Source: Tepidiforma thermophila (GTDB taxonomy: Bacteria > Chloroflexota > Dehalococcoidia > Tepidiformales > Tepidiformaceae). From it: 64,000 nt of DNA. The notes under the pieces were generated by a model, which did no database searches, was not told the DNA's origin, and was given only the letters and a program-made list of their open reading frames with translations. Location of the stretch: assembly GCF_002563855.1 (NCBI RefSeq), contig NZ_PDJQ01000001.1, positions 2,666,001 through 2,730,000 of the forward strand, written 5' to 3'. Of this stretch, positions 25,433 to 62,175 are shown piece after piece. The first letter of the stretch is position 1; every line of letters begins with the position of its first letter. Position numbers and translations under genes: made by a program.

Positions 25433-25481
25433 GGGGACGGGCGAGGCACCAGACCGCTGGCAGTGGCAGCCGGCATTCGGT

Positions 25482-33376: not shown

Positions 33377-34660
33377 TTAGCGGATGATGTTGACGAGGTC
33401 CTGGAGCATCTGGTCGCCGGCGGTGATGACGCGGGAAGAGGACTGGAAGCCGCGCTGGGCGAGGATGACGGATGTGAACTGCTGGGCGAGGTCGACGTTG
33501 GAGGATTCGAGGGTGCCGGTGGAGACGGAGCCGCGGCCGTTGGTGTTGGGCTGGCCGATGATCGGCTCGCCGGAGTTGGCGCTGGGGGCCCAGAGGTTCT
33601 GGCCGAGGCGCTGCAGGCCCCCGGGGTTGGTGAAGGCAGCCAGGGCGAGCTGGCCGATGATCTGGTTGGCGCCGTTGGAGTAGATGCCCGTGATTTCGCC
33701 GGTGGAGCCGACGGCGAAGGAGACGAGCGCGCCGGCGGGGGCGCCGTCCTGGCTGGAGACGTTGAGCTGGCTGGCGCCGGCGAACTGGGTAAGGGCGGAG
33801 AAGTCGATATCGAAGGCGAGCGGCGTCGCGGCACCGCTGGGAAGGGTGGGCAGGGAGAAGTTCAGGATGCCGTTGGCCGGGGCCTGGACGGCGCCGGTGG
33901 TGTTGTTGAAGACGATCTGGCCGGGCGTGGGCGTGACCTGTTGCTCGGCCGTGAGCGGGTTCCCATCGTGGTCGTAGAAGGCGAAGACGTCCCAGGTGTT
34001 GGCCGCGGAGTTCTTGCGGAATTCGAGGTTGAGGGTGATGGCGTTGCCGAGGGAGTCGTAGACGGTGAGGGTGGACTGGACGAGGCCGGTGGCCGGCGGG
34101 CCGGCGTTGTAGGTGGGGGTGCCGGCATCGAGGTTGCCGGCCATGACGACTTCGCTGGTGACGCGGGCGCTGATGCGGGTGCCGAAGGGGATGGAGAGGG
34201 GAACGAGAGGGCCGTCGACGTCGATGACGCCGGAGGCATCGGCGCGCCAGCCCATGACCTTGAGGCCGGTGACCGGGTTGACGAGGTTACCGGCGACATC
34301 GATATCGAAGGCGCCGTCGCGGGTGTAGTAGTTGCGGGAGCCATCGGAGACGACGAAGAAGCCGTCGCCCTGGATGGCGAAGTCGGTGAGCTTGCCGGTG
34401 CTCTGGAGGGAGCCCTGGGTCATGATGTTGTCGATGCCGCCGAGCTGCATGCCCAGGCCGATCTGTGCGGGGTTCATGCCGCCGCGGCCGCCCTGGGGGC
34501 TGCTGGCGCCGCGGATGGTCTGGCCGAGGATGTCCTGGAAGGTGACGCGGGAGGACTTGAAGGCGATGGTGTTGACATTGGCGATGTTGTTGCCGACGAC
34601 GTCCATGAAGGCCATGTGGTTCTTCATGCCGGAGATGGCGGAGAAGAGTGCTCGCATCAT
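33377..34660 (-). CDS. flgE: Flagellar hook protein FlgE
   Basis: Builds the flagellar hook. The 427-aa product has the N-terminal rod/hook signature (MRALFSAISGMKNHMAFMDV, VGNNIANVNTIAFKSSRVTF, QDILGQT), the FlgE segment FAIQGDGFFVVSDGSRNYYT-RDGAF, a middle domain (VYDSLGNAITLNLEFRKN) and the C-terminal coiled segment SNVDLAQQFTSVILAQRGFQ-SSSRVITAGDQMLQDLVNI. Two adjacent ATG codons (34658-34660, 34655-34657) are possible starts. It is the last gene of the flagellar operon here. Length is in the usual range for a short hook protein. Confidence 0.95.
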   Translation of the reverse strand: MMRALFSAISGMKNHMAFMDVVGNNIANVNTIAFKSSRVTFQDILGQTIRGASSPQGGRGGMNPAQIGLGMQLGGIDNIMTQGSLQSTGKLTDFAIQGDGFFVVSDGSRNYYTRDGAFDIDVAGNLVNPVTGLKVMGWRADASGVIDVDGPLVPLSIPFGTRISARVTSEVVMAGNLDAGTPTYNAGPPATGLVQSTLTVYDSLGNAITLNLEFRKNSAANTWDVFAFYDHDGNPLTAEQQVTPTPGQIVFNNTTGAVQAPANGILNFSLPTLPSGAATPLAFDIDFSALTQFAGASQLNVSSQDGAPAGALVSFAVGSTGEITGIYSNGANQIIGQLALAAFTNPGGLQRLGQNLWAPSANSGEPIIGQPNTNGRGSVSTGTLESSNVDLAQQFTSVILAQRGFQSSSRVITAGDQMLQDLVNIIR

Positions 34661-34745
34661 GGTGGGTACTCGATCCTTTCTGTGCCGTTGCTGGTGAGGT
34701 GGCGGTGCGGATCGGGCCTCCGACGAGCGGACCGGCCCGGAGCTG

Positions 34746-35127
34746 CTAGGCGATGACGACGGAATCGATGTTCGTGAAGACGTGCTCCTTTCCACGGGTG
34801 GTGTCGAGGGCGGTGACCACGGTTCGACCGGGGACATCGACGATGACGGCGAGGTTGTCGAGCATGACGACGGTGCTGCGGGCGCCCTTGCCGGCGGCGC
34901 GGTCGATGGCGGATTCGAGACGCTGGAGCTTCGGGGCATCGAGGGCGAGTTCGCGCCGTTCGATGCGCTTTGCGGCGTGGCCGGAGAGCGCGACGCGGGT
35001 GCTGGCGCGCTGGAGGAGGTCGGCGAAGGCGGGGCCGCCTTGCGGTGCCGCGGCGGGGGCCGGCGCGGCGGGGCGGGGCAGGGCGGGGCAGGGCGGCGGG
35101 GCCGATGGGGGCGGTGCGGTCGATCAT
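34746..35127 (-). pseudogene. Flagellar operon protein (flg_new/TIGR02530-like), frameshifted
   Basis: Between flgD and flgE most monoderm flagellar operons encode a ~120-aa protein of the TIGR02530 family. Its conserved sequence is present here: FADLLQRASTRVALSGHAAK, RIERRELALDAPKLQRLESA, IDRAAGKGARSTVVMLDNLA, VITAL-type TVVTALDTTRGKEHVFTNID. That frame has no ATG, GTG or TTG before it and opens directly after the flgD stop. The natural start is ATG 35125-35127, overlapping that stop, but it reads one frame off. A perfect 10-bp tandem duplication (35071-35090) lies between. Removing one copy joins the two into a clean 123-aa protein. So the gene is broken by replication slippage, phase-variable, or affected by a sequence error. 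Confidence 0.8.
35071..35096. repeat. 10-bp tandem repeat, 2.6 copies, inside the flagellar gene
   Basis: GGGCGGGGCA occurs twice in direct succession (35071-35080 and 35081-35090), followed by a partial copy GGGCGG. Since 10 is not a multiple of 3, each gain or loss of a unit switches the reading frame of the flagellar operon gene. Confidence 0.9.
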
Positions 35128-35681
35128 GGCTGCTGCACCTGGCTGACGGTGAAGAGGTCGAGGACTTTGCCGCCGACGTAGAGGAAGGGGATGCCGGAGC
35201 TATCCATGACGACCTTTTCGACGACGCCGGTGACCTCATTCCCGGCGTTGGGGAGGTCGGCAGCGGCAGCGACGACGCGCTCGTCTTCATTGACAGCGAC
35301 GCGCTCGGGCGAGGTGAGCTTTGCGAAGGGGCGCCCGAACTTTTCGCGAGCGACGAGGTCGCGGGTGATGGCGATGGCATCGACCTGGCGGCCGGTGACG
35401 GTTTTGCCGATGAGGCCGGCGGCGCTGGTGAGCTCGGCGAGGCCCTGGAGCGCCTTCATACCCGAAGCGACGGCGCGCATCTGGTTGAGGGCTTCGAACT
35501 GGGCCATCTGGGCCATCCAGTCGGAGTCCTTCTGGGGCTCGAGGGGGTTTTGGTTGCGCATCTGGGCGATGATGAGCTTCATGAAGTCGACCTGGCCGAG
35601 CTCATTGGAGGGCGCGCCCGTGGAGGGCGTGTAGGTCGCGTTCTTGAGGCCGGTGACGGGGTCGATCTGCAGGCCGGGCAT
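35124..35681 (-). CDS. flgD: Flagellar hook assembly scaffold FlgD
   Basis: Caps the growing hook. The 185-aa product has the FlgD N-terminal signature: LGQVDFMKLIIAQMRNQNPL-EPQKDSDWMAQMAQFEALNQ, then LTSAAGLIGKTVTG. It is short: the tudor/FnIII domains present in longer FlgD proteins appear reduced to one small beta region (GVVEKVVMDSSGIPFLYVGG). It follows the FliK-like gene by 14 nt and its stop overlaps the start of the next, frameshifted gene. Confidence 0.92.
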   Translation of the reverse strand: MPGLQIDPVTGLKNATYTPSTGAPSNELGQVDFMKLIIAQMRNQNPLEPQKDSDWMAQMAQFEALNQMRAVASGMKALQGLAELTSAAGLIGKTVTGRQVDAIAITRDLVAREKFGRPFAKLTSPERVAVNEDERVVAAAADLPNAGNEVTGVVEKVVMDSSGIPFLYVGGKVLDLFTVSQVQQP

Positions 35682-35695
35682 CGGTCGGGTGCCTC

Positions 35696-36943
35696 CTAGA
35701 CGCGGTAGATGAGCGAGCCGTCGGGGTTGTAGGCGGCGCGCAGGCGGTGGTGGCGGGCTGCGGCAGCCGGGTCTTCGATACCGAGCAGAGCAGCGAACTC
35801 GCCCTTCGCGGGCGGCTGCTGGCGAGGGCGGACCTCCTCCCAGCCGCCGCTATCGCCCTGGCGGGCGCCAAGGCCGACGCTCAGCCCTTCGAGGCTCATG
35901 CCGCGCTGGCCGAGGAGGGCGGAGAGGTCGGCGGCGGCATCGCGAAGGAGGGCGACGGCCTCGGGGGTCTCGGCGTGGATATCGAGGTGGACGGCTTCGT
36001 GGCGGGCGGTGAGGCGGATGGTGATTTCGCCAAGCCCGGCGGGTTCGAGGCGGATGCGGGCCTCGCCGCCACCGTCTTCGACCCGTTCGATGACGGCGGT
36101 CGCGACGGCGTCGAGGTTAGTGATGGCGGGCGGCGCAGGAGGCGGGGGATCGGCTGGGGGCAGCGCGGCGCCCTGGGGGGAGGACGTTTCGCTGAGCTGG
36201 CCGACCGCGGACCCGGCGGCAGCGTGGGCGATGGCCGGTTCGGCGGCGCGCGGCAGCGGGCGGTCGGCGGGGCGGCGGGCATCGCGGACGGCGATGCCGG
36301 GCGGGAGGGCCGGTTCGGATCCCGGTGCGGCGTTCCCGACGGTGCGGACCACGCCTTTGGGGGATTCGGCGGGGAGGCCGGCCGGGGGTTCGGCGACCGC
36401 CCGGGGCGCTGCCGGCTCAGCGGACGGGGCGTCGGCCCGGGAGCCGGCGACAGGGTCAGCTTCCGGGGCCGCAGCCGGGTCGGCGGGGGCTTCGGCTGGC
36501 ACGGCATCGGCCGAGGCGAGGGGCGACTCGGCTTCTGCTGGAGCGTCGGCACCGCCCGGCGCTTCGGGGGCGAGCATGGCGGGCGCCACGGCAGCGGGAG
36601 CGGCATCGGCCGGGAGCGCGGGCGACGGCGCCGGGACAGGCGAGGCGTCCGTTCCGTCCGGGGCGGCGGAAGGTCCGCCCGCGGGCAGCGCCTGGGCGGG
36701 GAGGACAGGAACCGGAACAAGTGCGAGCGCCGGCAGGAGATCGGCCCCGCTCTCGCGGCGCGGCGGCGGCGGCGGGAGGGCGGATTCGGACCGGCTCTCG
36801 CCGGCGGCGGCACCGGCGTCCCCGGCGATGGCCGCGAGGAGGGCGCCGAAGAGGTCGCCGGCGGCTGCGGTGCCGGTACCGCCGGCCTGGGCGGAACCGG
36901 CGAGTTCGAGCGGTGCGGGCTGGAGTTCGACGACGAGTCCCAT
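35696..36943 (-). CDS. fliK: Flagellar hook-length control protein FliK-like
   Basis: The 415-aa product has a long Ala/Pro-rich central stretch (about residues 40-270) between a short N-terminus and a C-terminal domain of the Flg_hook type: EARIRLEPAGLGEITIRLTA, VHLDIHAETPEAVALLRDAA, LSALLGQRGMSLEGLSVGL. This ruler-plus-switch layout is that of FliK, which measures the hook and triggers the export switch. The disordered ruler is extreme in alanine and proline. It starts next to the fliE stop and precedes flgD. Confidence 0.88.
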   Translation of the reverse strand: MGLVVELQPAPLELAGSAQAGGTGTAAAGDLFGALLAAIAGDAGAAAGESRSESALPPPPPRRESGADLLPALALVPVPVLPAQALPAGGPSAAPDGTDASPVPAPSPALPADAAPAAVAPAMLAPEAPGGADAPAEAESPLASADAVPAEAPADPAAAPEADPVAGSRADAPSAEPAAPRAVAEPPAGLPAESPKGVVRTVGNAAPGSEPALPPGIAVRDARRPADRPLPRAAEPAIAHAAAGSAVGQLSETSSPQGAALPPADPPPPAPPAITNLDAVATAVIERVEDGGGEARIRLEPAGLGEITIRLTARHEAVHLDIHAETPEAVALLRDAAADLSALLGQRGMSLEGLSVGLGARQGDSGGWEEVRPRQQPPAKGEFAALLGIEDPAAAARHHRLRAAYNPDGSLIYRV

Positions 36944-61050: not shown

Positions 61051-62135
61051 GCCGCGCGGGCGAAGGCTCCCTGCGGCAGCGGCCGGGCGGCGGGCCGGCC
61101 GAGGAGGTACCCCTGCACCAGGTCGACGCCGGCCTCGCGGACCACGCGCAGCTCATCGGGGGTTTCGATGCCCTCGGCGAGGGTGGTGATGCCGAGGTCG
61201 CGGGCCATTGCCACGATGCGCTGGACGATGGTCGCCCGGTAGGGGTTGGCGTCGATGCCGCGGACCAGCTGTATGTCGAGCTTGACGACGTCCGGGCGGA
61301 CCTGGTCGAGGAGGTTGAGGGAGGCGAAACCTTCGCCGAAATCGTCGAGGGCGACGCCGAAGCCGGCGGCCCGGTAGGTATCGAGGATTCGCACGAGGTG
61401 ACGGACATCCTCGATGCGCTGGGATTCAACGACTTCGAAGACGACGAGTTCCGACGGAATTCCAGCTTCGCGAACAGCTTCGACCGTAGAGCGGAGGCAA
61501 AAGGCCGGGTTGTAGATGGCTGTCGGGGTGAAGTTGATGAAGAGACGGCCGACACCGGCGCCGTTGCGGATGGCGAGGAGGCGGGCGAAGCGGTCGAGGT
61601 GGAACATCAGGTCGCCGGCGGCTGCTGCCGAGTAGAGCACGCCGGGCGGGATGATGGTGCGGCCGTCGCGTTCGAGACCGCGGAGGAGGCACTCGTGGGC
61701 GTAGAGGCGCCCGTCGGCGGTGAAGACGGGCTGGAACCAGGTCGTGGCGCGGTGTTCGGCGAGGAGGTCGACGAGCCAGCGGGCGCGTGCGCGGGCGAGG
61801 AAGCCTGCGAGGGTTTCCATGCGGAGGAGTGCGGGCAGGTCGACCGGGGCGCCAGCGGGGAGCACCAGGACGCGGGCGTCGTGCTGTTCGATGGAGGAGA
61901 AGGCGGCCTCGAGGCACTCGGCGAGCGCGCCCAGCTGACCGGGGCCGTAGGGAACGGAGAGGGTCGAGGGGACCTCAGAGCGCGGGCTGAAGCCTGCGCT
62001 CTCGAGCTGCTGGCCAACGCTGGCCAGGGAGGAGGCCAGGGGCGGAGCGACGACGAGAATGCCGCTCTCCGGGGGAGCGACGGGAAGGAGCTGGCAATCG
62101 ACGCAGGGACCGGACGCGGACGAGGTATCGCTCAC
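61047..62135 (-). CDS. EAL-domain c-di-GMP phosphodiesterase-like protein
   Basis: The 362-aa product has an N-terminal part of about 110 residues without a recognised sensor domain and a C-terminal EAL domain: TTWFQPVFTADGRLYAHECL-LRG (ECL in place of EAL), FINFTPTAIYNP, ELVVFEVVESQRIED, GFGVALDDFGEGFASLNLLD, VRPDVVKLDIQLVRGID, TTLAEGIETPDEL and VDLVQGYLLGRPA. The metal and water ligands (E, N, E, DD, K, E, Q) appear intact, so hydrolysis of c-di-GMP is plausible. No GGDEF domain. Relevance to the flagellar operon is inference. Confidence 0.85.
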   Translation of the reverse strand: MSDTSSASGPCVDCQLLPVAPPESGILVVAPPLASSLASVGQQLESAGFSPRSEVPSTLSVPYGPGQLGALAECLEAAFSSIEQHDARVLVLPAGAPVDLPALLRMETLAGFLARARARWLVDLLAEHRATTWFQPVFTADGRLYAHECLLRGLERDGRTIIPPGVLYSAAAAGDLMFHLDRFARLLAIRNGAGVGRLFINFTPTAIYNPAFCLRSTVEAVREAGIPSELVVFEVVESQRIEDVRHLVRILDTYRAAGFGVALDDFGEGFASLNLLDQVRPDVVKLDIQLVRGIDANPYRATIVQRIVAMARDLGITTLAEGIETPDELRVVREAGVDLVQGYLLGRPAARPLPQGAFARAA

Positions 62136-62175
62136 GCCGGGATTTTCGGCAGGTGCCTGGGGCGGCTGAAGGGGC

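Follow-up and report, generated by a model that had tools for sequence, protein, structure and literature searches.

A conserved flagellar gene of Tepidiforma separated from its start codon by one extra 10-bp repeat unit, probably a recent slippage event

The question raised by this locus is why the start codon and the conserved domain of a flagellar gene lie in different reading frames. The locus belongs to a Tepidiforma genome (Chloroflexota) consisting of a single contig of 2.74 Mb, from which the window, a stretch of 64 kb (positions 1-64000), was analysed. The gene (34746-35127, minus strand) is a member of the TIGR02530 family (flg_new, PF12611) and sits within the hook cluster between flgD (35124-35681, minus strand), encoding the hook-capping scaffold protein, and flgE (33377-34660, minus strand), encoding the hook protein of 427 aa; both neighbours are intact and were named by profile matches. 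The cluster runs on the minus strand in the order fliF-fliG-fliH-fliI-...-flgB-flgC-fliE-fliK-flgD-TIGR02530-flgE, where FliF was identified by a genome search and the remaining names are tentative, following position and the usual gene order. The rest of the flagellar apparatus is represented in the genome by FliF, FlhA, flagellins, FlgD and FlgE.

An earlier, sequence-only reading had placed the conserved TIGR02530 frame directly after flgD without a start codon and the natural ATG in the neighbouring frame, and both observations hold on the sequence. The ATG at 35127 overlaps the flgD stop codon (TGA 35126-35124) and opens a frame of 156 codons (34657-35127, minus strand), the Arg/Pro-rich product of which has no match in Pfam or NCBIfam. 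The conserved domain (approximately 35026-34749) lies in the other frame, which ends at TAG 34748-34746 and is open upstream only as far as the flgD TGA. An alternative start in the conserved frame was considered and rejected, since a codon scan from the flgD stop to the conserved domain found no ATG, GTG or TTG and since the non-standard CTG at 35081, located inside the repeat described below, is not used as a start by relatives; the further candidates, ATG 34865 and GTG 34820, are late. The window copy carries the motifs HAAKR and VFTNIDS typical of the family, and its profile score exceeds the curated cut-off of 83.2 bits in the frame as it stands in the genome (83.6 bits). Profile score and flgD-flgE neighbourhood thus place it in TIGR02530, and what it lacks is an intact gene with a start codon.

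Between the ATG and the domain lies a perfect tandem array (35071-35096, 26 bp, minus strand) in which a 10-bp unit (GGGCGGGGCA on the plus strand and TGCCCCGCCC on the minus strand) is repeated 2.6 times, the duplication with partial third copy that had been described before. Removal of one unit yields an open reading frame of 372 nt from ATG 35127, as had been predicted, encoding 123 aa and scoring 83.4 bits, again above the cut-off. A perfect array with period 10 and a length of 26 bp or more occurs once in the window and in none of 60 windows simulated with an order-3 Markov model, and the array 20-mer is found once in the 2.74-Mb genome. The array DNA codes for the Ala/Pro-rich N-terminal linker of the protein, which is presumably disordered, as judged from a predicted structure with pLDDT below 50 over most of residues 1-27. 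The array has a 5-bp sub-period, which is a natural substrate for slippage, and on the opposite strand it is overlapped by a cluster of G-runs (35069-35088, plus strand, G3+N1-7 x4) that may act as a replication-pausing element; together the two would favour slippage. Throughout the window, four-run G motifs of this kind number 25 on the plus strand and 0 on the minus strand, a bias that agrees with the strongly positive GC skew (0.13-0.25 per 8-kb block).

The comparison with five congeners (G001-G005) and about 70 other relatives shows that an in-frame start is the rule. In all five congeners the gene is in frame from an ATG or GTG that overlaps flgD, their linkers differ in length by multiples of three bases only, and the 10-bp array is absent. 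The nearest congener, G004, which is 92-95% identical over long aligned blocks of the window, is exactly 10 bp shorter at the array and has an intact 123-aa gene, and beyond the gap its linker matches at 27 of 30 residues. This exact gap is the decisive evidence, because restoration of the frame by one unit would on its own be a one-in-three coincidence. Among 75 family loci from Chloroflexota, Bacillota, Actinomycetota and others, some of which may represent the same species twice, the window locus is the sole exception: the other 74 all have in-frame starts and show no sign of frame variation. The idea that all relatives might share the two-unit allele together with an alternative start is thus false, and the relatives give good support to the proposal that one extra unit caused the loss of frame, most simply by slippage.

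The family itself is tied to the flagellum in the Tepidiforma lineage. Within the taxonomic family, all 21 FliF-positive genomes have a TIGR02530 gene, compared with one of 16 FliF-negative genomes, a fragmented MAG. Five FliF-bearing members of the class outside the taxonomic family gave no TIGR02530 match, and neither did four flagellated model genomes, those of E. coli, B. subtilis, Caulobacter and Thermotoga, in which FliF and FlhA are present. No relative of the protein was found in the PDB by sequence or fold, and a literature search returned no paper using the name TIGR02530.

Several features show that the loss of frame is recent and isolated. The gene body still looks constrained in comparison with G004 (dN 0.025, dS 0.184, dN/dS 0.135), with one private amino-acid change in the window copy and three in the intact G004 copy, and across the 64 kb compared with G004 the extra 10 bp are the sole frame-changing indel found within a gene; on these two grounds the disruption is young and confined to this site. 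The other frame-changing indels are intergenic, lie near gene ends or form compensating sets, as judged from the codon phase of substitutions, for instance in the fliK linker. Two broader causes were rejected. A general decay of the flagellar cluster is at odds with neighbours that are intact and phase-constrained, and an error-rich genome with the comparison over the window, which turned up no second indel shifting the frame within a gene, the rest being at gene boundaries or cancelling out.

The explanation that we consider the most probable, though by no means certain, is a single recent slipped-strand duplication of 10 bp in linker DNA, which left a probably null but revertible allele in the sequenced strain or culture. 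Slippage is the simplest cause of such a duplication, and of the meanings proposed in the sequence-only reading it is the recent loss in a strain or culture that stands as the likeliest. The event would have duplicated the unit within the Ala/Pro-rich linker DNA and thereby put the TIGR02530 gene out of frame. Ribosomes starting at ATG 35127 would then read an unrelated frame up to the start of flgE, so that the two-unit allele would give little or no functional TIGR02530 protein, and the loss of one unit through the same kind of slip would restore the gene. Since the shifted frame has no internal stop before flgE, the allele probably removes one protein and leaves flgE unblocked. Polarity on flgE is probably slight, because ribosomes meet no premature stop before reaching it and because flgE has its own Shine-Dalgarno-like site (AGAAAGGA) upstream.

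The TGA of the shifted frame overlaps the flgE ATG at 34657-34660. In G004 and G003 the corresponding offset frame likewise runs open as far as this TGA, whereas in G001, G002 and G005 it does not. Selection for a non-polar shifted frame was therefore rejected, and the open frame is probably accidental, since only some of the congeners have it.

All three cultured Tepidiforma species were described as motile (PMC10284905), which fits a null allele poorly if swimming depends on the gene, a need that the flagellated model genomes with no TIGR02530 match make less than certain. The reported motility implies that the gene is dispensable for swimming, that the tested cells carried one unit or that the sequence is wrong. 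The last of these, in which the true genome has one unit and an intact gene and the extra unit arose during sequencing or assembly, is a possibility of limited weight. It would be in keeping with the motility of the cultured species (PMC10284905) and with a stretch that is very G+C-rich, repetitive and G-quadruplex-like, and, with no other gene of the window broken, nothing else would lead one to expect a real loss at strain level. However, single-base frameshifts are not in excess within the genes of the flanking 64 kb. The usual errors in long-read assemblies concern homopolymer length, which a clean 10-bp duplication does not resemble. For T. thermophila G233, PacBio sequencing and assembly with HGAP are described (PMC10284905).

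With a real duplication, small amounts of the conserved protein might still be produced if ribosomes underwent +1 frameshifting at CCC-C sites of the array and so regained the conserved frame within a tolerant linker, which we regard as unlikely. CCC codons occur in the ATG frame at 35088, 35073 and 35058, giving three CCC-C sites in the region where both frames are open, with no stop between, and the purifying signal that persists in the gene body would fit. CCC-C is a known slippery sequence that supports up to 1% of +1 shifting in E. coli beside the start codon, but this start-adjacent position is the most shift-prone one (PMC4519876), and the sites here lie at least 13 codons from the start. 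Furthermore, the intact congeners need no shift and the orthologues are in frame throughout, so that the conserved site of a programmed frameshift is missing. Even less probable is an evolved phase-variation switch, the ON/OFF role that the sequence-only reading had also proposed and that has gained no positive support. In such a switch, frequent reversible changes in unit number would turn the gene on with one or four units and off with two or three. A coding repeat with a unit length not divisible by three, a perfect array found nowhere else in the genome and its location in a disordered linker would all suit it, and the reported motility could reflect ON cells (PMC10284905). Repeat-mediated contingency loci, however, mutate at 100-10,000 times the basal rate, the pace depending on repeat number (PMC11868660), and 2.6 copies do not make a long hypermutable tract. 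Nor is the array kept with variable copy number among relatives, as it occurs in none of the five congeners, the linkers of which vary in steps of three bases, frame variation is unseen across the 74 loci and a single allele is known. That a 10-bp slippage switch of this gene makes motility heterogeneous in clonal Tepidiforma is, if anything, more improbable still.

The slipped-strand duplication can be set beside phase-variable motility genes such as swrA of B. subtilis, fliP of H. pylori and flhA of C. coli/jejuni. In these a motility-related gene goes off-frame through a repeat change and may revert by the same slip. Those switches are homopolymer tracts with both alleles documented, whereas the window has a 2.6-copy 10-bp array with one known allele, the reversion of which is predicted. 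Laboratory strains also acquire culture-selected loss-of-function mutations in flagellar genes; the recent, strain-specific disruption with an otherwise intact apparatus is shared with these, although an origin in culture is here something we infer. If real, the allele would be a naturally occurring knock-out, in a flagellar gene of wide conservation, within Tepidiforma, the only cultured genus of the Chloroflexota reported as flagellated or, more cautiously, one of the few. Users of the genome should be aware that annotation of the sequenced strain may overlook the gene or label it a pseudogene, though it is intact across the genus.

Some further differences from G004 were seen in the window. 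The gene in the fliK position has many small indels mid-gene (36450-36814) and keeps an open frame overall, which marks a fast-evolving linker. A segment of approximately 1.1 kb (61055-62161) has no nucleotide match in G004 while both flanks align, possibly a replacement or insertion, and G004 carries about 3.3 kb extra between window positions 25436 and 25452 (L082:512-3854).
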